From Syntrophus gentianae (GTDB lineage: Bacteria; Desulfobacterota; Syntrophia; Syntrophales; Syntrophaceae), in assembly GCF_900109885.1 (NCBI RefSeq), contig NZ_FOBS01000006.1, positions 62,001 to 126,000 on the forward strand: a DNA stretch of 64,000 nt. Reading direction: 5' to 3'. This document shows, one piece after another, positions 25,563-36,237 of this stretch. The position numbers and the translations under genes are program-made. Every line of letters begins with the position of its first letter. The stretch's first letter is position 1. Below the pieces are notes generated by a model, which saw nothing but the letters and a program-made list of their open reading frames with translations, ran no database searches and was not told the origin of the DNA.

Positions 25563-27125
25563 ATGGCAAAGTTATATCCGGAGGAATTTTACAACTCAGC
25601 AGATTGGTTCGTAGACAGGCACATACGGGAAGGCCGTGGCGAGAACATTTGTGCGTACACGGACAAGGGCAACTACACCTATCGCGACATTCAGAAAATG
25701 TCCAACAAGATGGCCAACATGTTCAAAGGAATGGATATTCGGATGGGCGACCGAATCATCATGCTGGTTCTCGACACGCCCTGGTTTTATTCAACCTTCT
25801 GGGGGGCTGTGAGGATGGGGGCTGTTCCTGTTCCTGCCAGCACCATGCTCACCTCTGCCGATTATGAATATTACCTGAACGACAGTCAGGCGAGGACGCT
25901 GGTTGTTTCGTCAAGACTTCTCCCTGTCGTTAACGAGATTGAAGAACTCCGTTTCCTGCAGGACATCATTGTTGTCGATGATGACGGCGTTTTTTCCTCA
26001 CCGTTCAAACAGATGTATAATGCAGCATCGGATGAATTTAATACCGTGTTTACTGCGGCAGACGATGTCGCTTTCTGGCTCTACACCTCCGGCACCACCG
26101 GCGGCCCGAAGGGAGCGGTTCATTCCCAGTCTGATATGCAGTACAGTGCAGAGCACTATGGACAAGATATTCTCCACATTACGGAAAAGGATATCTGCTA
26201 CTCGGCAGCAAGACTCTTTTTCGCTTACGGCCTCGGCAATGCCATGTTCTTCCCCATGTCGGTAGGCGCGGCGACTGTCTTGAACCCGGATCCTCCTGCT
26301 CCGGCGCATGTCTTCCGCCTGATCAGCCAGTACAAGGCAACCTTGTTCTTCGGCGTTCCGACGCTCTTCGGTCAGATGCTGATCGCCCAGGAAAAACTGG
26401 ACAAGGAAAATCCGGGGGCTCCCCACGCCTTGGCAACGCTTCGTGCCTGCCCGTCCGCCGGTGAGGCGCTTCCTCCCGATCTGTACCACAAGTACAAGGC
26501 CCGCTATGGCGTGGAAATCCTTGACGGTCCGGGTTCGACGGAAATGCTCCATATCTATCTGTCCAACCGGATCGGCGCCATCAAACCGGGTTCCAGCGGA
26601 CAGCCTGTGGCCGGTTACGAAGAGAAGATCATGGACGACGAGGGGAAAAATGAACTGCCTGTCGGTGAAGTCGGCAATCTCTGGATCAAGGGGAGAAGCT
26701 CCCTGCGTTATTACTGGAGAAAGAGAGACAAGACGGCCAATACCGTCATCGGCGAGTGGATCAACTCGGGCGACAAGTATTACAAAGATGAAGAAGGCTT
26801 CTTCTTCCCCTCAGGCCGGGCCGATGATATGTTGAAAGTCGGTGGGATCTGGGTGTCTCCGCTGGAAGTGGAAAACTGCCTGAGAGAAAATGCCGCCGTT
26901 ATGGAATGCGCCGTTGTCGGTGCCATGGATGACGAGAATCTGGTGAAGCCGAAGGCCTTCGTTGTCCTTAATCAAGGGTTTGCGCCTTCCCCGGAACTTG
27001 AAAAGGAACTGAAAACCTGGGTCCTCGATCGGCTCGCCAAGTTCAAGTATCCCCGGTGGGTCGTATTCATCGATTCGCTTCCCAAGACAGCAACCGGGAA
27101 GATTCAGCGATTCAAGCTGCGCTAG
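25563..27125 (+). CDS. Benzoate-CoA ligase, copy 1
   Basis: A 520-residue AMP-forming acyl-CoA synthetase of the benzoate-CoA ligase family. The ATP-binding loop YTSGTTGGPKGAVHS is near 173-187 and the adenylation lysine is Lys513 in PKTATGKIQ. It converts benzoate (or a related ring acid) to the CoA thioester in the cytoplasm, the entry step of anaerobic aromatic degradation, and may run in reverse when the organism makes benzoate. A strong AAAGGAGGAGGAAG site precedes the ATG. A near copy is encoded convergently 390 bases downstream. A perfect terminator follows. Confidence 0.92.
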   Translation: MAKLYPEEFYNSADWFVDRHIREGRGENICAYTDKGNYTYRDIQKMSNKMANMFKGMDIRMGDRIIMLVLDTPWFYSTFWGAVRMGAVPVPASTMLTSADYEYYLNDSQARTLVVSSRLLPVVNEIEELRFLQDIIVVDDDGVFSSPFKQMYNAASDEFNTVFTAADDVAFWLYTSGTTGGPKGAVHSQSDMQYSAEHYGQDILHITEKDICYSAARLFFAYGLGNAMFFPMSVGAATVLNPDPPAPAHVFRLISQYKATLFFGVPTLFGQMLIAQEKLDKENPGAPHALATLRACPSAGEALPPDLYHKYKARYGVEILDGPGSTEMLHIYLSNRIGAIKPGSSGQPVAGYEEKIMDDEGKNELPVGEVGNLWIKGRSSLRYYWRKRDKTANTVIGEWINSGDKYYKDEEGFFFPSGRADDMLKVGGIWVSPLEVENCLRENAAVMECAVVGAMDDENLVKPKAFVVLNQGFAPSPELEKELKTWVLDRLAKFKYPRWVVFIDSLPKTATGKIQRFKLR

Positions 27126-27216
27126 GATCGGTATCTGAACCTGTAAGGGATCTATTTCAGGGGGGGGTGAGCAGGAGATCCATATCAACCCTTGAGTAAA
27201 AAGATCACAAAATTGG

Positions 27217-27255
27217 AAGGGCCGCCTTTTTGCTAAAGGCGGCCCTTCTTTATTT
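27217..27255 (+). terminator. Terminator of benzoate-CoA ligase 1
   Basis: A perfect 13-base stem (AAGGGCCGCCTTT at 27217-27229 with 27235-27247), a five-base loop and a T-rich tail. Confidence 0.88.
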
Positions 27256-27514
27256 TGCCCGGAATGGTGCATTCGACCCGGTGCAGGTCCATCCGTCCAT
27301 TGAAATTGCAGCAATCAACGGGAATTGTAATGTTACAAAAGGAACCCAGTGCGAGGAGGCAGCAGGGAACAAAGTTGTAAATCCATGGACAAGGACCGGA
27401 CAGCAGACATACCCGGGCGGGGCGATCGTGCCTGAAACCGGGAAATATATTGTGTGTCCGGGACCAGCTGTATCCGCTGGTCCCAGACTTGCCGGTTATT
27501 CCTTTTATGACAGA
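27256..27514. other. Spacer between convergent ligase genes, with hairpin
   Basis: No supported gene; a 145-codon open frame on the plus strand (27230-27667) starts inside a terminator and runs antisense into the second ligase. A perfect nine-base hairpin, GGGACCAGC (27460-27468) with GCTGGTCCC (27476-27484), lies 31 bases past the stop of the second ligase and may help end its transcript, although no T-run follows. Confidence 0.45.
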
Positions 27515-29089
27515 TTAACGAAGCTTGAATCGCTGAATCTTGCCGGTTGCCGTCTTGGGAAGCTCATCCATGAAGACGATCCAGCGGGGATATTTGAATT
27601 TGGCAAGCCGATCGAGGACCCAGGTTTTCAGTTCCTTTTCAAGTTCCTGCGAGGGTGCAAACCCTGATTTGAGGACCACGAAGGCCTTCGGCTTCACCAG
27701 ATTCTTGTCGTCTTCCGCCCCGATGACCGCGCACTCCATAACGGCGGCATGTTCGCGCAGACAGTTTTCCACTTCCAGCGGAGACACCCAGATTCCGCCG
27801 ACTTTCAGCATATCGTCGGCCCGGCCTGACGGCCAGAAGTATCCATCCGCATCCTTGTAATACTTATCGCCGGTGTTGATCCATTCGCCTCTGACCGTGC
27901 CGGCTGTTTTCTCTCTCTTTCTCCAGTAGTAACGGAGGGAGCTAGCGCCTTTTGCCCAGAGGGTTCCGATCTCGCCGACCGACAGTTCATTGCCGTCATC
28001 ATCGACAACTTTCACTTCATAACCGGGGACAGGCTTTCCGCTGGAGCCCGGCTTGACATCACCGATTCGATTGGACACGTAGATGTGGAGCATTTCCGTC
28101 GATCCCGGTCCATCGAGAATCTCAACGCCGAAACGCTCATTGAACTTGTAGTAAAGGTCGGGGGGAAGGGCCTCGCCGGCGGAGGGGCAGGCCCGCAGTG
28201 TTGAAAGCTCATGGGGTGCCTTGGGATCAGGTGTTGCCCCGCTCTCCTTGTCCTGCTTTACTTTGTATTCCAGCATCTGTCCGAAAAGGGTTGGAACGCC
28301 GAAGAACAGGGTCGCCTTGTAGCCACTGATCAGCCGAAAGGCATGGGCCGGTGTGGGGGGATCGGGGTTGAGGATGGTGCCTGCGCCGACAGCCATTGGG
28401 AAGAACATGGCGTTGCCGATACCGTAAGCGAAAAAGAGTCTGGCTGCCGAGTAGCAGATATCCTTTTCGGTAATCTGAATGATTTCCTTCCCATAATGAT
28501 CCGCACTGTACTGCATGTCGGACTGGGAGTGAACCGCCCCTTTCGGGCCACCGGTGGTCCCGGAGGTGTAAAGCCAGAAAGCGATATCGTCCTTTGTCGT
28601 AAACACGGTTTGAAATTCATCGGCTGCTGCTGCATACATCTGCTTGTAGGGAACGGAAAACTCGCCGTCATCATTGACAACGATGATATCTCGGAGAAAA
28701 CGGAGTTCCTCGATGCCCTCAATAACGGGGAGAAGTCTTGACGAAACAACAAGCGTTCTTGCCTGGCTGTCGTTGAGGTAATATTCATAGTCATCAGACG
28801 TAAGCATGGTATTGGAAGGAACGGGGACAGCCCCCATCTTTACCGCGCCCCAAAAGGTGGAATAGAACCAGGGCGTATCCAGAACGATCATGATGATCCG
28901 GTCACCCATCCGAATATCCAGATTTTTGAACATGTTGGCCATCTTGTTCGCCATTTTCTGGATGTCGCGATAGGTGTAGTTGCCCTTATCGGTGTAGGCG
29001 CATATATTATCACCGCGCCCTTCTCTGACGTGTCTGTCTACGAACCAATCTGCTGAATTGTAAAATTCTTCCGGGTATAACTTTGCCAT
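27515..29089 (-). CDS. Benzoate-CoA ligase, copy 2 (sigma-54 controlled)
   Basis: A 524-residue paralogue of the ligase at 25563, sharing the N-terminus MAKLYPEEFYNSADWFVD and nearly all motifs; the adenylation lysine is about Lys517. A four-residue expansion occurs near residue 280, where this copy has KVKQDKESGATPDPKAPHE. I start it at the ATG at 29089, with AAGGAGGAATC directly upstream; a start nine codons earlier has no such site. A -24/-12 promoter lies 60 bases upstream and a sigma-54 activator gene follows beyond it. So this copy is probably inducible, while copy 1 has a sigma-70-like promoter. Confidence 0.92.
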   Translation of the reverse strand: MAKLYPEEFYNSADWFVDRHVREGRGDNICAYTDKGNYTYRDIQKMANKMANMFKNLDIRMGDRIIMIVLDTPWFYSTFWGAVKMGAVPVPSNTMLTSDDYEYYLNDSQARTLVVSSRLLPVIEGIEELRFLRDIIVVNDDGEFSVPYKQMYAAAADEFQTVFTTKDDIAFWLYTSGTTGGPKGAVHSQSDMQYSADHYGKEIIQITEKDICYSAARLFFAYGIGNAMFFPMAVGAGTILNPDPPTPAHAFRLISGYKATLFFGVPTLFGQMLEYKVKQDKESGATPDPKAPHELSTLRACPSAGEALPPDLYYKFNERFGVEILDGPGSTEMLHIYVSNRIGDVKPGSSGKPVPGYEVKVVDDDGNELSVGEIGTLWAKGASSLRYYWRKREKTAGTVRGEWINTGDKYYKDADGYFWPSGRADDMLKVGGIWVSPLEVENCLREHAAVMECAVIGAEDDKNLVKPKAFVVLKSGFAPSQELEKELKTWVLDRLAKFKYPRWIVFMDELPKTATGKIQRFKLR

Positions 29090-29110
29090 GATTCCTCCTT
29101 GTTCTATATT

Positions 29111-29124
29111 AGTCACAATGTAAT
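29111..29124 (-). promoter_or_regulatory. Leader motif shared with benzoate-CoA ligase 1
   Basis: On the minus strand ATTACATTGTGACT, 21 bases before the ATG. The same motif with one base changed lies 22 bases before the ATG of copy 1. It may be a duplicated remnant or an operator. Confidence 0.45.
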
Positions 29125-29544: not shown

Positions 29545-31332
29545 TCACTGGAGGGAATATTTTTTTATTTTTTTCAGAACCGCCGTGTGGGAGATCCCCA
29601 GCATCCGGCCGATCTGCCGAGAATTCCTGAAATTTTTTAATGCCTTGGATAGCATGTCTTTTTCGACGCTTTCCATGACTTCTTTGAGGGTTGAAAAGAC
29701 TTCCTCCGGTGCGTCTTTCCCGGATTCGACAGGTTCGCCGGCTGGAGTCTGCGAGGGATTGTTCTGCCCCATTTCAGGGAAATCGGCGTCAATGAGGTTT
29801 CCCGGGCAGGTCACAACCAGCCGTTCAATCATGTTTTTCAATTCCCGGACATTGCCCGGCCAGTTGTAATTGCTGAACTTCTGCAGCAAAGCGGGAGCCA
29901 GGAATTTTCCGCCGCCATATTTATCGTTGTATCGGTTCAGAAAATAATCCACCAGCAGGGGGATGTCCTCTTCCCGCTCCCGAAGGGGGGGAAGGGTGAT
30001 CGGTACGACGTTCAGACGGTAGAACAAATCCTCCCGGAACTTCCGTTCTGCAACCAGATTGCTCAGTTCCCTGTTGCTGGCGGCAATCAGTCGGACGTTC
30101 ACCCTGATGACTTTCGTTCCCCCCAGCCGGAGAAAGGCCCGATCCTGGATGACCTGGAGAAACTTGACCTGGAGATCCAGAGGCAGATCTTCGATTTCAT
30201 CGAGGAAAAGCGTACCGTCCGCAGCCAGTTCGAAGATTCCGGGTTTACCTTCCTTGTTCGCCCCGGTAAAGGCGCCCCGATTGTAGCCAAAGAGTTCGGA
30301 TTCCAGGAGGTGCTGCGGGATCGCGCCGCAATTGACCTTGATGAATGCCCCCGGCCGTTTGCTCCAGAGGTGGATCAATTTGGCAAGCACCTCTTTGCCG
30401 ACGCCCGATTCTCCCTGAATGAGAACGGTCGCCTCGCTGCCGGCAACCCTTCTGGACAGTTCGAGAATCTCAACCATGGCCGGATTGGCGGTGATCATTC
30501 CATTGGAGCGCCACTCGTCCTCAAGCATCCGGTTGACCTCCGTCTGCAGGCGGTTGCTCAATTCCCGTGATTGGGCCAGCTCCTCCTGCAAGGAGCGGAT
30601 CTCAGACATGTCTCTTGCGTTGGTTACCAATCGCAGAATATTGCCTGCTTCATCAAACACGGGGGTCGCGGTGACCATGACTTCCTTGCCGGTTCGGGTT
30701 TTCTGAATGCCAGTGACAATTTTTTTCCTCTTCCGAGCCAGGCTTTCAATGGACTGAGAGAAAAAATGGCCGTTCTCATAAAGGGATTCCATCTTGTGCC
30801 CGATGAAATGCTCCTGGGTGAGTCCGGTGATCCGCAACAGGGCTTCATTGATTTTCAGAACGTTGCCCTCCCCGTCGGTGATGAGGATCCCATCATGGGA
30901 GGAGGCGATAATGTCTTCCAATTCCTTGTTCAATTTCTCTTGAGATTGTAATTCCGCCTTGATCTTATCCAGTTCCGTCACATCCCTTATCAGGAAGAGC
31001 GTTCCGTCCGCAAAATCGCTTCCCAATCCGGAGAAAGACCGTACGACGAAGCTCCTGTTGTGGCAGGTGAACCGTTGGTCCTGGGGATTGTTCTTAGATT
31101 TTAGAAAAGCCGACAGCTCAGCGGCTCCCGGGATGGACTGCAGAGGTGTTCCGATGACCCGCGCATCGACTTCGAGCATCTTTTGAGCGGCGGTATTGCA
31201 CGCAATGACCATCTCCTCATGGTCGACGGCAAGGATTCCCTCGCTTATGCGCTCAAGAACAAGAGGGGGCAGTTCTTCCATTTTTAGGGATTTCCCACTC
31301 CAGCAGGATATATCGGGTAAGTAAATCATCAA
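29545..31332 (-). CDS. Sigma-54-dependent activator with two PAS domains
   Basis: A 595-residue enhancer-binding protein. Two PAS modules (about 20-120 and 137-245) precede a coiled linker and the AAA+ domain, with Walker A GESGVGKE at 307-314 and the sigma-54-contacting GAFTGA at 353-358. The C-terminus (about 560-595) is a Fis-type helix-turn-helix, NSRQIGRMLGISHTAV. It has no receiver domain, so it probably senses a small molecule or redox state through PAS. The start may instead be Met18. The gene directly precedes benzoate-CoA ligase 2 and its -24/-12 promoter, so it most likely activates that gene. Confidence 0.93.
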   Translation of the reverse strand: MMIYLPDISCWSGKSLKMEELPPLVLERISEGILAVDHEEMVIACNTAAQKMLEVDARVIGTPLQSIPGAAELSAFLKSKNNPQDQRFTCHNRSFVVRSFSGLGSDFADGTLFLIRDVTELDKIKAELQSQEKLNKELEDIIASSHDGILITDGEGNVLKINEALLRITGLTQEHFIGHKMESLYENGHFFSQSIESLARKRKKIVTGIQKTRTGKEVMVTATPVFDEAGNILRLVTNARDMSEIRSLQEELAQSRELSNRLQTEVNRMLEDEWRSNGMITANPAMVEILELSRRVAGSEATVLIQGESGVGKEVLAKLIHLWSKRPGAFIKVNCGAIPQHLLESELFGYNRGAFTGANKEGKPGIFELAADGTLFLDEIEDLPLDLQVKFLQVIQDRAFLRLGGTKVIRVNVRLIAASNRELSNLVAERKFREDLFYRLNVVPITLPPLREREEDIPLLVDYFLNRYNDKYGGGKFLAPALLQKFSNYNWPGNVRELKNMIERLVVTCPGNLIDADFPEMGQNNPSQTPAGEPVESGKDAPEEVFSTLKEVMESVEKDMLSKALKNFRNSRQIGRMLGISHTAVLKKIKKYSLQ

Positions 31333-31618: not shown

Positions 31619-31646
31619 TTGACATGGCAGGAGGAAATGATAAAAG
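31619..31646 (+). promoter_or_regulatory. Promoter of the Phe-leader transcript
   Basis: A perfect TTGACA at 31619-31624, a 16-base spacer and TAAAAG at 31641-31646. Transcription would begin near 31653, about 18 bases before the leader peptide start codon. Confidence 0.55.
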
Positions 31647-31670
31647 AGCCTGATCAATTGAGGTTACTCC

Positions 31671-31751
31671 GTGAAATACATAGAATCCATACTCTTTTTC
31701 TTTAGCTTCTTCAGCTTTTTTAGCAGTGGGGATTATCCGGCCCCGAGCTGA
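31671..31751 (+). CDS. Phenylalanine-rich leader peptide (pheL-like)
   Basis: A 26-residue reading frame starting GTG at 31671 with GAGG seven bases before it, ending TGA at 31749-31751. Residues 9-17 read FFFSFFSFF: seven phenylalanines in nine codons, out of 26 codons in all. The order promoter, short peptide with a Phe run, terminator, gene is that of the enterobacterial pheA attenuator, whose leader peptide is also Phe-rich. The run is also pyrimidine-rich DNA, so chance must be considered, but start signal, position and following terminator all fit. It is too short for ordinary gene finders. Confidence 0.65.
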   Translation: MKYIESILFFFSFFSFFSSGDYPAPS

Positions 31752-31776
31752 TTGGTTAAAGAACCGAACTAAGAAG

Positions 31777-31807
31777 CCGCGGGCAGCAAACCCCGCGGTT
31801 TTTTTTT
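31777..31807 (+). terminator. Attenuator terminator before acyl-CoA synthetase 1
   Basis: CCGCGGG (31777-31783) pairs with CCCGCGG (31792-31798), followed by nine T residues. It lies 25 bases after the leader peptide stop and 45 bases before the synthetase start. A small upstream hairpin (GGTT-AAAG-AACC, 31754-31765) and a GCCC tract near 31740 could take part in alternative pairing. Confidence 0.85.
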
Positions 31808-31851
31808 GGAAAAAATCGGAGAATCAAGGGAGGTCAAAGGGAGGAGAAAAG

Positions 31852-33930
31852 ATGTTTGATGCATTGTTCAATCCAAAATCGGTTGCTATCCTGGGCGCTT
31901 CAGAAAGAGAATTCAATATCGGAAACCGCGTCGTAAAGAATCTTGTGGAATACGGCTACACGGGGGCCATTTATCCCATCAATGCCAAAGTGGATGCCCT
32001 TTACGGGCAGAAGACCTACACCTCGATCCTTGACGTCCCCACGGATGTCGATGTGGTCCACGTGGCCATCGCGGCCCGTCATGTACCGCAGGCAATCGAT
32101 GATTGCGGAAAAAAGAATGTTAAATATCTGATTATGAACGGCGGCGGATTTTCCGAGATCGGCCCCGTCGGCGCGGCCATCGAGGCGGATTGCATGGCCC
32201 GGGCAAAGAAGCACGGCATCCGGATCTTCGGGCCCAACTGCCAGGGGGTCATCAATACCGATCCGGCGGTGAAGGCCTACTGCAATTTCACCTTCACCTT
32301 CCCGAAGCCGGGACATGTGTCGATTCTCAGCCTGAGCGGCGGGATGGCCTCACTGCTTCACCAGGCCATTTTCGACATGGGAATCGGAACCCGGCTGTAT
32401 GCGACCAATGGAAATGCCTGCGACATCTCCATTCCGGAACTTCTGGAATATTATGGCAATGATGAGAAAACGCGCGTCATACTCCTTTACGTGGAGGGAA
32501 TCCGCGACCCGAAAGAGTTCCTGCGGGTCGCCCGGAAGGTGGCCGCCAAGAAGCCGATCCTGGTCATGAAGGCCGGCCGGACGATGGAAGGGGCCAAGGC
32601 GGCTGCTTCGCACACGGGCGGTCTTGCCAAAGAGGATCTCAGCGCGGATCTCATCTTTGAAAAGGCGGGGATGATCGTTTTCGACGATGAGGAGAAGCTT
32701 TGCCAGGCCGCCGCCGTTTTTGCCTCTCAGCCGGTGCCGCGTGGCGGCCGGGTGGGCATGATCTGCAATACCGGCGGACCCGCGGTGATTGCCACCGATG
32801 TGCTGGTTCAGAACGGCCTGACCATTCCGACCCTGTCGGATAAAGCACAGGCAATTCTAAAGGAATCCCTCTTTCCCGAGGCCTCCATCCGCAATCCCGT
32901 GGATGTCCTTGCCACGGGCACCGGCAAGCATTTCCGGATCACCCTCGACACGCTGATGGACGATGACGGGATCGACAGCATCCTCATCCACTTCGTCACG
33001 CCCCCCTTCGTCAATACCAACGAAATCGCCCAGGAAATCGTGGAAGTCAACCGGCAGAAACGGAAGCCCATCATCTGCAACTTCATGACCGACAAGGGGC
33101 AATGGCAGGAGACGCTCCGCATTCTGACCGAAGGCGAGGTCGTCTGCTACGATTTCCCGAGCACCTGCGGGCAGGCCTTGGCCGCTCTGACGAAATACGG
33201 AGAGACACGCAACCGAAAGGAAAGTAAGGTCAAGACCTTTACCGATGTGGACCGGCAGAAGGCCGAGACAATCCTTGAAGGGGTCAACGCCTCCGGACGG
33301 AAACTCCTCAACGCCGATGAGGTTTATGGAGTCCTCTCCGCCTACGGAATTCCCGTCGCCCCCTGGCGAACGGCGGGCAGCCCGGACGAAGCCGCTCGGC
33401 ATGCCACGGAAATTGGCTTCCCCGTGGCCTTAAAGGCGGATGCTCCGACGATTGCCCACAAAACGGATCTGGGCGGCGTTGTCCTCAACCTGGGCGATGA
33501 ACAAGCGATTCGGGAAGAGGCGCAGAAGATGGCCGTAAATCTCTCCGGCCATGATCTCAAATTCCTGGTTCAGAAATATCTGCCCGGCGGAAAGGAAATC
33601 ATCGTCGGGTCCAAGGCGGACGATGATGCGGGTCATCTTGTCATGGCCGGACTTGGCGGCGTTTATGTGGACATTTTCAAGGACATCAATTTCAAACTGG
33701 CCCCGGTAACTTGTACCGAGGCGGAAGATATGCTCTCCTCCCTCAAGGCTGCCCCCCTTCTTGGAGAGGTGAGGGGTGACAAGGCCATCAATCGGGAGGC
33801 CGTCATCGAAATCATTCAACGGGTATCCCAGCTCGTGGCAGATCTGCCCGCCATTCAGGAAATGGACCTCAATCCCGTCCTGGCCACCGACGCGGGTTCC
33901 GTGGTTGTGGATGCGGTGATCCATCTGTAA
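31852..33930 (+). CDS. ADP-forming acyl-CoA synthetase, copy 1 (fused alpha-beta)
   Basis: A 692-residue NDP-forming acyl-CoA synthetase: CoA-binding domain (about 1-130), succinyl-CoA-ligase-like domains with the phospho-acceptor His254 in ASHTGGLAKED, and a C-terminal ATP-grasp domain (about 470-692). It interconverts an acid, CoA and ATP with acyl-CoA, ADP and phosphate in the cytoplasm. I start it at the ATG at 31852, with GGGAGGAG upstream; earlier in-frame starts lie inside the attenuator. Substrate cannot be read from the sequence. Its Phe-type leader suggests an aryl acid such as phenylacetate, used for phenylalanine synthesis. That link is inference. Confidence 0.88.
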   Translation: MFDALFNPKSVAILGASEREFNIGNRVVKNLVEYGYTGAIYPINAKVDALYGQKTYTSILDVPTDVDVVHVAIAARHVPQAIDDCGKKNVKYLIMNGGGFSEIGPVGAAIEADCMARAKKHGIRIFGPNCQGVINTDPAVKAYCNFTFTFPKPGHVSILSLSGGMASLLHQAIFDMGIGTRLYATNGNACDISIPELLEYYGNDEKTRVILLYVEGIRDPKEFLRVARKVAAKKPILVMKAGRTMEGAKAAASHTGGLAKEDLSADLIFEKAGMIVFDDEEKLCQAAAVFASQPVPRGGRVGMICNTGGPAVIATDVLVQNGLTIPTLSDKAQAILKESLFPEASIRNPVDVLATGTGKHFRITLDTLMDDDGIDSILIHFVTPPFVNTNEIAQEIVEVNRQKRKPIICNFMTDKGQWQETLRILTEGEVVCYDFPSTCGQALAALTKYGETRNRKESKVKTFTDVDRQKAETILEGVNASGRKLLNADEVYGVLSAYGIPVAPWRTAGSPDEAARHATEIGFPVALKADAPTIAHKTDLGGVVLNLGDEQAIREEAQKMAVNLSGHDLKFLVQKYLPGGKEIIVGSKADDDAGHLVMAGLGGVYVDIFKDINFKLAPVTCTEAEDMLSSLKAAPLLGEVRGDKAINREAVIEIIQRVSQLVADLPAIQEMDLNPVLATDAGSVVVDAVIHL

Positions 33931-34032: not shown

Positions 34033-34131
34033 TATTGTCAGCAAGGCGCATTGACTTACAAGTCCCCTCTGTATTAAACAGCCCCTGCGTGAGGTTAAAT
34101 TTCTACTGTACTAATGGAGGTATTTTGTACC

Positions 34132-36237
34132 ATGGAAAGGCTTTTCTATCCGCGATCAATCGTCATTATCGGCCTGTCAGCAAAACCCACCAACATCTCC
34201 AGGATGGTTCTGGAGAATCTCCTGCGCTGGGGCTACCGGGGACGGATTTTCGGGGTGAATCCCCATATTGATGAACTGAATGTCAGCGGCGTCAAGATGT
34301 ACCGGGATGTTGAAGACCTGCCGGAAATTCCGGATCTCGCAGTATGTCTTCTGCCTGCCCGTTTTGTCCCCGAGGTGGCTGAAAAATGCGGAAAACTGGG
34401 AATATCGAGAATGGCCGTCCTGTCGGGAGGCTTTTCCGAATTCGGCGGAGCGGGGAAGCAGCTCTCCGGCCTTCTTCTCCAGAACGCCCGGAAGTATCAT
34501 ATCCGGTTTGTGGGCCCAAACGCCCTTGCGATGGCCAATACGGCAAATGGCCTCTGCCTTCCCTTCATCCCGATTTTCCCGCCGGTCAAGGGCGGCATGT
34601 CCATCATCACCCAGAGCGGCGGGGTCGGGCTCATGCTCTGGAACCTCCTTGCCGACGAAAACGTGGGCATGGCGAAGTTCGTCAGCATTGGAAACAAACT
34701 CGACCTCGATGAAACCGACTTTCTGGAATACCTGGACTCGGACCCTGAAACAACGATCATCTGCATGTACCTGGAAAGCATGAGCAGCGGCAAACGCCTG
34801 ATCCAGGCGGCAAAAAAATGCAGAAAACCGATCGTTGCCTACAAGTCGAACACGACCTCAGCGGGCGGCAGGGCGGCATTGAGCCATACCGCTTCCCTCA
34901 GCAGCGACGAGGATATTATCGATGCAGCCTTTGAGGAAGCGGGGATCATTCGAATCCAGAATTACGGGGATCTGGTGGCCGTCGCCAAGGTTTTTGAGCT
35001 TCCTCCCATGCACGGAAACCGGATCATGGTCATGAGCCCGGCCGGCGGATTTGCTGTCATCGGCGCGGATCTTTGTGAAAAGGCTGGATTCGAATTCGCC
35101 GATCCCGGTGAAGACTTTTATAAGAGCCTGAACAGGTTTGCCAACGCGGGGGTCATCAAGTTTTCCAATCCCCTTGATATGGGCGATATTTACGATCCGC
35201 ATATGGCCGCCCACGTCGCTTACGAGGTCATGCACAATGAAAATGTGGATGGCGCCATCTATATCGGTCAGAGGCCCAAAATGCCCGAGGGAAATAACGT
35301 TTTCCGTGAGTTGTTCCTGACGGATCTGTCGAAGGAGACCTACGGCTCCATGCTCTCTTCAGGTAAACCTCTCGGGGTATGCCTCTATGGCCTTTCCGGA
35401 TACATGCACCGGGTAAAGAAATATACGAGTTTCCCGATCTTCAACAACCCCGAGGAAATGGTGCGGGCCTTCGCCTTTCAGAAAGACTGGCATGCGCGAA
35501 GGCGCACGGATCAGGAGATCCTGCCGGAGAACGTCTATTTCAAAAAGGAAAATCTGCAAAGCTGGCTGGACGCTTCCGGAGAGGTGGTCGGCGAAGAGGC
35601 GCTGGAGCTGCTCTCTTTAACTGGCATTCCCGCAGCCGTCTCGGGCATTGCAAGGGATGAGGAAGAGGCGGTGAAACTGGCCCAGGCGATGGGATATCCG
35701 GTGGTGATGAAGGTCGTTTCGCCCGATGCCCTCCACAAGACCGATGCCGGTGGGGTTGCCGTGGGGATCGGAGATGCCGATGCCGTCCGGAGGTGTTTTG
35801 CCCGGATCCGCCGGAATCTTGAGGCCTATAAGGAGGGCGCCCGCTTTGAGGGAGTCCGGATACAGAAGATGGCCGGTGAGGGGCACGACATGTTCATCGG
35901 CGGCAAATTCGATCCATCCTTCGGCCCGGCGGTCGTTTTCGGCTTCGGGGGCATCTACGTCGAGGTTTTCAAAGACGTCCAGACCTGCCTTTGCCCGGCC
36001 TCCGCCCCCCTGGTCAGGAAAAAGATCGAAGCCCTCCAATCCTATGCCATCCTGAAAGGCACCAGGGGAGGGAAACCGGCGGATATCGAAGGCTATGCCG
36101 ATGCCATTGTCCGCCTGTCATGGCTGCTCACAGAGTATCCGGAGATCCGGGAGGTAGACATCAATCCCTTACGGCTCTTCAAGGACGGATCGGGCCTCTG
36201 CGCCCTGGATGCACGGATGGCAATAGCGAAAGGGTAG
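34132..36237 (+). CDS. ADP-forming acyl-CoA synthetase, copy 2 (fused alpha-beta)
   Basis: A 701-residue protein of the same family and domain order as the gene at 31852, but clearly diverged. The phospho-acceptor histidine is His252 in LSHTASLSSDED and the ATP-grasp domain fills the C-terminal third. I start it at the ATG at 34132, after GGAGG at 34116-34120; the ATG at 34114 would overlap that site. A strong terminator separates it from copy 1, so it may have its own promoter in the intervening 200 bases. Substrate unknown; candidates are acetate, branched-chain or aryl acids. The stop lies ten bases from the convergent flavoprotein gene. Confidence 0.88.
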   Translation: MERLFYPRSIVIIGLSAKPTNISRMVLENLLRWGYRGRIFGVNPHIDELNVSGVKMYRDVEDLPEIPDLAVCLLPARFVPEVAEKCGKLGISRMAVLSGGFSEFGGAGKQLSGLLLQNARKYHIRFVGPNALAMANTANGLCLPFIPIFPPVKGGMSIITQSGGVGLMLWNLLADENVGMAKFVSIGNKLDLDETDFLEYLDSDPETTIICMYLESMSSGKRLIQAAKKCRKPIVAYKSNTTSAGGRAALSHTASLSSDEDIIDAAFEEAGIIRIQNYGDLVAVAKVFELPPMHGNRIMVMSPAGGFAVIGADLCEKAGFEFADPGEDFYKSLNRFANAGVIKFSNPLDMGDIYDPHMAAHVAYEVMHNENVDGAIYIGQRPKMPEGNNVFRELFLTDLSKETYGSMLSSGKPLGVCLYGLSGYMHRVKKYTSFPIFNNPEEMVRAFAFQKDWHARRRTDQEILPENVYFKKENLQSWLDASGEVVGEEALELLSLTGIPAAVSGIARDEEEAVKLAQAMGYPVVMKVVSPDALHKTDAGGVAVGIGDADAVRRCFARIRRNLEAYKEGARFEGVRIQKMAGEGHDMFIGGKFDPSFGPAVVFGFGGIYVEVFKDVQTCLCPASAPLVRKKIEALQSYAILKGTRGGKPADIEGYADAIVRLSWLLTEYPEIREVDINPLRLFKDGSGLCALDARMAIAKG

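Follow-up and report, generated by a model that had tools for sequence, protein, structure and literature searches.

A 64,000-nucleotide stretch of the Syntrophus gentianae genome (contig NZ_FOBS01000006.1, positions 62,001 to 126,000 of the forward strand; hereafter the window) carries a short phenylalanine (Phe)-rich leader in front of a gene for an ADP(NDP)-forming acyl-CoA synthetase (ACD). The layout of this leader, its predicted folds and its conservation indicate that it is very probably a ribosome-mediated transcription attenuator, and the broader claim that joins such an attenuator to a general Phe-forming purpose of the ACD also appears probable. All elements lie on the plus strand. 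A sigma-70-like promoter, TTGACA-N16-TAAAAG (31619-31646, with TTGACA at 31619-31624 and TAAAAG at 31641-31646), is followed by a Shine-Dalgarno-like GAGG (31660-31663), recognized from the sequence and from comparison of the Syntrophus leaders, and by a GTG-started frame of 26 codons (31671-31751) that encodes MKYIESILFFFSFFSFFSSGDYPAPS (equivalently VKYIESILFFFSFFSFFSSGDYPAPS) and ends at a TGA at 31749-31751. Seven of the 26 codons specify Phe, all within nine consecutive codons (TTT TTC TTT AGC TTC TTC AGC TTT TTT, 31695-31721; residues 9, 10, 11, 13, 14, 16 and 17). Downstream lies a predicted intrinsic terminator (31777-31807), consisting of a 7-bp GC core, CCGCGGG/CCCGCGG, at 31777-31798 and nine T residues at 31799-31807, and the ATG of the ACD is at 31852. 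An earlier note on this DNA had described the promoter, the GTG frame, the seven Phe codons in nine, the hairpin with its T run and the synthetase start, and each was found where it had been placed; its proposal of a Phe attenuator with the layout of pheA is borne out by the leader, the terminator and the orthologous leaders described below.

Short open reading frames and terminators are both common, and a Phe-rich frame might stand beside an ordinary terminator by chance, with no attenuation taking place. The window, read in six frames, holds a single run of at least seven Phe in nine codons, and 60 base shuffles yielded none (mean 0). The leader RNA folds at -50.5 kcal/mol, compared with -37.4 +/- 3.4 kcal/mol for dinucleotide shuffles, a difference of 3.8 standard deviations. 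The leader is also kept in orthologues. The genus holds two orthologues of the ACD, 92% identical in Syntrophus sp. PtaU1.Bin005 and 82% identical in PtaB.Bin001, preceded by the leader peptides VNYTESISSFLFFICFFTFSFSFSGGHILSPS (8 Phe) and MKFTKSVSIFFFFSFFSHGDIVRPS (7 Phe), respectively, each closed by a stop codon. In both, the Phe codons, frame, stop, antiterminator and terminator are kept, and the stop context and hairpins are nearly invariant; the gaps in the coding part are all multiples of three, and the stretch from the terminator to the ACD start has diverged. The earlier note had named as damaging any orthologous leaders that lost their Phe codons and kept the terminator, and both available orthologues retain them. 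Paralogous leaders are likewise Phe-rich (see below), and each of the six Phe leaders of Syntrophus has a TTGACA 52-60 bases upstream of its start. In a fourth Syntrophus genome, orthologues of the ACD and of the dehydratase and thiolase genes discussed below are all absent. A mechanical scan of 17 Syntrophus stretches for Phe-rich short frames followed by a terminator recovered no leaders beyond those described here.

Folding of the leader predicts three states, including mutually exclusive hairpins. In the minimum-energy fold, the RNA of the Phe codons pairs with the stop-codon region to form a 1:2 hairpin (31698-31763), a putative anti-antiterminator, whose UCAGCUU/GAGCUGA pairing is also predicted in the consensus of four leaders. 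When the 3' arm of the terminator is left out, the RNA folds into a 2:3 antiterminator (31740-31784) of about -19 kcal/mol, with the pairing GCCC-CG-(A)-GCU-(GA)-UUGGUU against AACUAA-(GA)-AGC-CG-(C)-GGGC, which takes up the whole 5' arm of the terminator. The 3:4 terminator alone is also predicted at about -19 kcal/mol, and a ribosome placed at the stop codon leaves no pairing ahead of the terminator better than -2.8 kcal/mol. Antiterminator energies range from -19 to -23 kcal/mol in three ACD leaders and from -14 to -15 kcal/mol in two leaders of thiolase genes.

Comparative data were used to assess this pairing. Across the six Syntrophus leaders, 85.7% of antiterminator cells are paired, compared with 35-52% when the arms are slid. 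Two observations weigh against the antiterminator: the inner stem is disrupted in the leaders of the thiolase and dehydratase genes, and the six Syntrophus leaders, taken alone, show no compensatory change in it. Because pair counts in these six could not prove the antiterminator, the test was extended to 25 leaders from Desulfobacterota. In this set, 84% of antiterminator cells are paired, with 16 compensatory cells, compared with 37-46% when slid, and none of 500 shuffles was as good; the terminator is paired in 99.6% of cells, with 23 compensatory cells. The case for mutually exclusive structures rests best on this set, in which one arm pairs in both the antiterminator and the terminator over the 25 leaders. 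The antiterminator pairing, judged weak by eye in the earlier note, is thus strong in both energy and covariation. Coincidence is contradicted by these comparative data and appears exceedingly improbable.

The structures suggest how the leader would work. With Phe plentiful, the ribosome would run past the Phe codons to the UGA and cover GAGCUGA; the antiterminator would then be blocked, and the terminator would end transcription at about 31807. With Phe short, as sensed through charged tRNA-Phe, the ribosome would stall on the Phe codons and open the 1:2 hairpin, allowing 31740-31784 to fold as the antiterminator and the ACD to be transcribed. With no translation, the 1:2 hairpin would favour the terminator. 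We therefore infer conditional termination at this leader.

This arrangement resembles that of E. coli pheA (pheL; Rfam RF01859, Phe_leader) in its Phe-run peptide, in a stop codon inside the antiterminator partner, in competing 1:2, 2:3 and 3:4 hairpins and in a terminator with a U run. It differs in belonging to another sequence family and in its target, which is an ACD here and chorismate mutase/prephenate dehydratase in the case of pheA. The window leader scores 19.6 bits against the RF01859 gathering cut-off of 55, which places it outside that family. An Rfam scan of the window leader returned only sub-threshold His_leader and Phe_leader matches, and no leader family was matched at the gathering threshold at seven leader-bearing loci.

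Near copies of the leader precede genes other than the ACD. In the genome of the window itself, a second copy with 72% identity (MQNLFSASAFVFFSFFSFSFKGRHTPLS, 8 Phe, then a stop) precedes a thiolase/DUF35 pair. Two more were found in PtaB.Bin001 when 155 genomes of the order Syntrophales were searched with a covariance model built from four leaders: one before a thiolase (MQDQLFGSAFFGFFFSFTRRHTPLS) and one (MQSSLSFSVFFSFIFTGGHMPPS) before a four-gene operon of the dehydratase/benzoyl-CoA-reductase family. Phe leaders beyond the ACD are thus found at the thiolase/DUF35 pair in two species and at the dehydratase-family operon in one. Directly upstream of the leader-bearing thiolase are genes for a 3-hydroxyacyl-CoA dehydrogenase, an enoyl-CoA hydratase and a GlcD-type FAD oxidase, joined in PtaB.Bin001 by an Fe-S subunit; an acyl-CoA dehydrogenase is absent from the genes just upstream. 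The dehydratase operon is present in all three leader-bearing species (beta subunit 83% and 78% identical), and in one of them (G001) it is cut by the end of the contig. Upstream of the 53%- and 47%-identical dehydratase genes of other genera, no Phe leader was seen.

The link between ACD and attenuator is not confined to Syntrophus and recurs in another family of the phylum (f74). Two ACD orthologues there have tyrosine (Tyr)-run leaders, MKHNQLSQANFYYFYYNEGRNLPAY and MKHNQFMQVYYYYYYYYTKGRNLPAY; the ACD begins about 300 bases further on. One of these genomes holds two ACDs that are 68% identical, and the second has MPFVASGRTTFALFIFFGFFSCIDPP and its stop, a strong antiterminator and a terminator upstream, so that one paralogue is apparently Tyr-attenuated and the other Phe-attenuated. 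The ACDs with leaders group as a single clade (100/99), which lies among ACDs of 2-hydroxyacyl-CoA dehydratase operons. A close ACD orthologue was found in 22 genomes (21 inspected), and in 18 of them the gene directly follows a 2-hydroxyacyl-CoA dehydratase subunit or activase; the remaining inspected genomes (3 of 22) carry aromatic leaders instead. This linkage was called by sequence likeness and checked with hidden Markov models in two loci. A recurrent cluster around ACD orthologues was also observed (loci L054, L055 and L213-L218), often with a TRAP transporter and also in a euryarchaeal metagenome-assembled genome; it comprises an ACT-domain protein, a ketopantoate-reductase-like protein, a dehydratase activase, dehydratase alpha, the ACD, an AMP-forming ligase and a thiolase, and looks like an undescribed 2-hydroxyacid pathway.

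These leaders belong to a wider class. The four-leader model also picked up leucine (Leu)-run leaders ahead of leuA, both in Syntrophus and across many further Syntrophales genomes, which are a useful positive control for it: they share the terminator style of the Phe leaders and differ in having Leu codons and a standard target in leucine biosynthesis. A leader of this kind (for example, one beginning MSDIARNQNLALNILPLLLGLALLRLLL) with a terminator stands before leuA-leuC(-leuD) at L089-L102 (Syntrophales family f15) and at L140, L141, L142 and L143 (Syntrophus), and is clearly a leucine attenuator. When 395 Desulfobacterota genomes were searched with a second model, built from the six Phe leaders, tryptophan (Trp) leaders were recovered, and aromatic leaders turned up in front of genes identified by sequence likeness as DAHP synthase, ADTH synthase, aroC and a gene of the MBL fold. 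The leaders of DAHP synthase, ADTH synthase, aroC and trp genes have the same 3' architecture and antiterminator as the ACD leaders and differ in their targets, which are established aromatic-pathway genes. Several of them mix Tyr, Phe and Trp codons; ACD leaders have a Phe run (Syntrophus and one paralogue elsewhere) or a mostly Tyr run. The f74 leader of DAHP synthase, for example, mixes Tyr, Trp and Phe (MISDLRKSAAGYWYFYWRNAHPGRFLS; L187, 6636-6723, minus strand) and stands before DAHP synthase-aroB-aroD-aroE-aroA, followed by two tandem terminator-like hairpins. Trp-rich leaders of the same class, MGKNQWAIWGWWWWNNQGGEVCP and one containing LLFICWCWQAYTNEF, occur at L162 and L174, the latter before a trpE-like gene. 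In other Desulfobacterota, aromatic leaders (MTANQSRAYLYYYYYYTKRRGLLMD and one ending in SGLFFYFRRWTVPMG; L164, L170 and L171, around 1400-1600) directly precede a gene for an MBL-fold protein, a metallo-hydrolase-like product. Several matches were set aside: one (G000:C18) is a hairpin with no amino-acid run, L105, L167, L168 and L176 also lack such a run, and the next matches in G001, G002 and G003, considered as Phe leaders, are the Leu leaders of leuA.

Since the same class precedes leuA (Leu), DAHP synthase and aroC (aromatic) and trp genes (Trp), the logic of the attenuator is biosynthetic. Members of the class are found mostly in front of genes for making the amino acid that they sense, so the simplest view of the ACD is that it takes part in forming Phe (or Tyr), with an aryl-CoA or an aryl acid as the starting compound. 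We regard a general aryl-CoA role of the ACD toward Phe as rather likely. The direction proposed in the earlier note, Phe synthesis, gains strength from the ACD genes of the other family, whose leaders are specific for Phe or for Tyr. Alternatively, the attenuator could be real and its targets catabolic or salvage genes, for breakdown of 2-hydroxyacids or aryl-propionates, with Phe starvation as a general signal. Beta-oxidation is the usual role of HBDH, enoyl-CoA hydratase and thiolase genes, benzoate-CoA ligases adjoin the locus, and the ACDs of most relatives lie in degradation-like operons with TRAP transporters. However, the other attenuators of the class mostly control synthesis of the very amino acid that they sense, and leaders specific for Phe or Tyr would be needless for a general starvation signal; we consider a catabolic purpose unlikely.

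The earlier note had put forward a particular substrate, phenylacetate. In a fuller form of this proposal, the ACD would activate phenylacetate (4-hydroxyphenylacetate in species with Tyr leaders) with ATP, and a ferredoxin-dependent 2-oxoacid oxidoreductase would carboxylate the CoA ester, giving the aryl-pyruvate in the manner of methanogens supplied with aryl acids. Such aryl-acid salvage would fit ACD paralogues whose leaders are specific for Phe and Tyr, a PaaK-type ligase and IorA follow the ACD cluster in one member of the phylum, and M. maripaludis has been reported to make aromatic amino acids from aryl acids (work cited in PMC4162585). The IorAB route of methanogens resembles the pathway considered here in that Phe or Tyr would be formed from aryl-CoA esters. 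However, in a search of the IorA family (TIGR03336, cut-off 650.9), none of the three leader-bearing species had a match above the cut-off (best 60-62 bits in two and 40 in PtaB.Bin001), and the only Syntrophus species above it (656 bits) is the fourth, which has no leader-bearing genes; thiolase and dehydratase genes carry the leader instead. A phenylacetate route made with IorAB is therefore less favoured. Phenylacetate keeps a small probability, since aryl-pyruvates can be acted on by an enzyme of the VOR type, which is not a member of the IorA family (PMC13285125). The proposal gives no reason for the Phe leader that the thiolase/DUF35 pair has in common with the dehydratase-family operon, and the ACD is linked to a 2-hydroxyacyl-CoA dehydratase part in 18 of 22 genomes. 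We consider this version quite unlikely: of the earlier interpretation, the Phe attenuator on the ACD and the direction toward Phe stand, phenylacetate as the specific substrate is not supported, and the weak antiterminator is refuted.

Within the biosynthetic reading, the most likely chemistry, put forward tentatively, would be a route from benzoyl-CoA to Phe. The thiolase/DUF35 pair would join benzoyl-CoA and acetyl-CoA to 3-oxo-3-phenylpropionyl-CoA, which would pass through the 3-hydroxy compound to cinnamoyl-CoA. The dehydratase-family enzyme, run in the direction of hydration, would give phenyllactyl-CoA; the ACD would convert this to phenyllactate with formation of ATP, and the GlcD-type oxidase would yield phenylpyruvate, the precursor of Phe in this scheme. 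As assigned by sequence, the genes under the Phe element and their neighbours cover the steps from benzoyl-CoA and acetyl-CoA through phenylpyruvate, and the scheme agrees with the absence of an acyl-CoA dehydrogenase beside the thiolase and with the linkage of the ACD to dehydratases.

Several observations weigh against a Phe route of this kind. This genome encodes DAHP synthase and, beside it, a prephenate dehydratase of the ordinary kind, so that an aryl-CoA route is not needed for Phe and would be an extra one; such a route would be sensible for an organism rich in benzoyl-CoA. The leader-type thiolase is missing from the species with the 92%-identical ACD. The GlcD-like oxidases upstream of the leader-bearing thiolases (L049, 11068-12645, and L133, 3373-4752, both minus strand) are only 37% identical between the two species and are therefore not orthologues, which points to a possible independent recruitment of a 2-hydroxyacid oxidase. 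No Phe leader was found at the dehydratase operon of the window's species. The Phe-leader operon of PtaB.Bin001 is a clear member of the superfamily in which no subunit reaches the equivalog cut-off for 2-hydroxyacyl-CoA dehydratase or class I benzoyl-CoA reductase, and it could encode a reductase, class I benzoyl-CoA reductase being indistinguishable by sequence. The first activase of this operon (L086, 4011-4811, minus strand) has unusual nucleotide-binding motifs, DVGDLYSK and GKCAGGSGRLLLIMA, compared with its partner at 488-1411, which suggests a heterodimeric activase as in benzoyl-CoA reductases.

The regulated ACD (31852-33930, plus strand; 692 amino acids) has the Pfam domains CoA_binding_2, Succ_CoA_lig and ATP-grasp_5 and the motifs SHTGG and HKTDLGGV, and with its CoA-binding, succinyl-CoA-ligase-like and ATP-grasp domains and catalytic His loop it belongs to the ACD class. 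It shares its domain set and the SHTGG and HK[ST]DxGG motifs with characterized NDP-forming acyl-CoA synthetases (4-hydroxybutyrate-CoA ligase, archaeal ACD; best solved relative 8wzu). Unlike these, it scores below the cut-offs of all characterized equivalogs (4-hydroxybutyrate, 3-hydroxypropionate and acetate), and its orthologues are linked to 2-hydroxyacyl-CoA dehydratases. A distant second ACD paralogue, 30% identical, lies 183 bases downstream on the plus strand (34114-36237) and is possibly co-transcribed; the species whose ACD is 92% identical does not have it in that position. The leader and ACD are adjoined (25563-29116 and 29545-31332) by a divergent PAS/sigma-54 activator and by two benzoate-CoA ligase paralogues, which are convergent and closely similar, and PtaU1.Bin005 (L051) has a similar gene set beside its own.

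Phe attenuators as such are already known, with pheA among the attenuated operons (PMC1183508). Phe- and Tyr-specific attenuators on an ADP-forming acyl-CoA synthetase, which RF01859 does not cover, appear to be new, as we found no report of them in the open-access literature. An amino-acid attenuator marks the genes through which a cell makes the amino acid in question, and the present class, with its Leu, aromatic and Trp leaders and common antiterminator, is usable for finding amino-acid pathways across Desulfobacterota. It is conceivable, if doubtful, that some Syntrophus have a shikimate-independent route from benzoyl-CoA and acetyl-CoA to Phe in which beta-oxidation and a 2-hydroxyacyl-CoA dehydratase run in reverse, ATP is gained at an ADP-forming phenyllactyl-CoA synthetase and copies of one Phe attenuator govern the genes, with a Tyr version acting on 4-hydroxyphenyl compounds in relatives. 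More generally, Phe- and Tyr-run attenuators on the ACD in two lineages, and the Phe element on thiolase and dehydratase loci, point to an unrecognized aryl-CoA route in anaerobes that live on aromatic acids, and provide a ready regulon and named candidate enzymes for an aryl-CoA route to aromatic amino acids.

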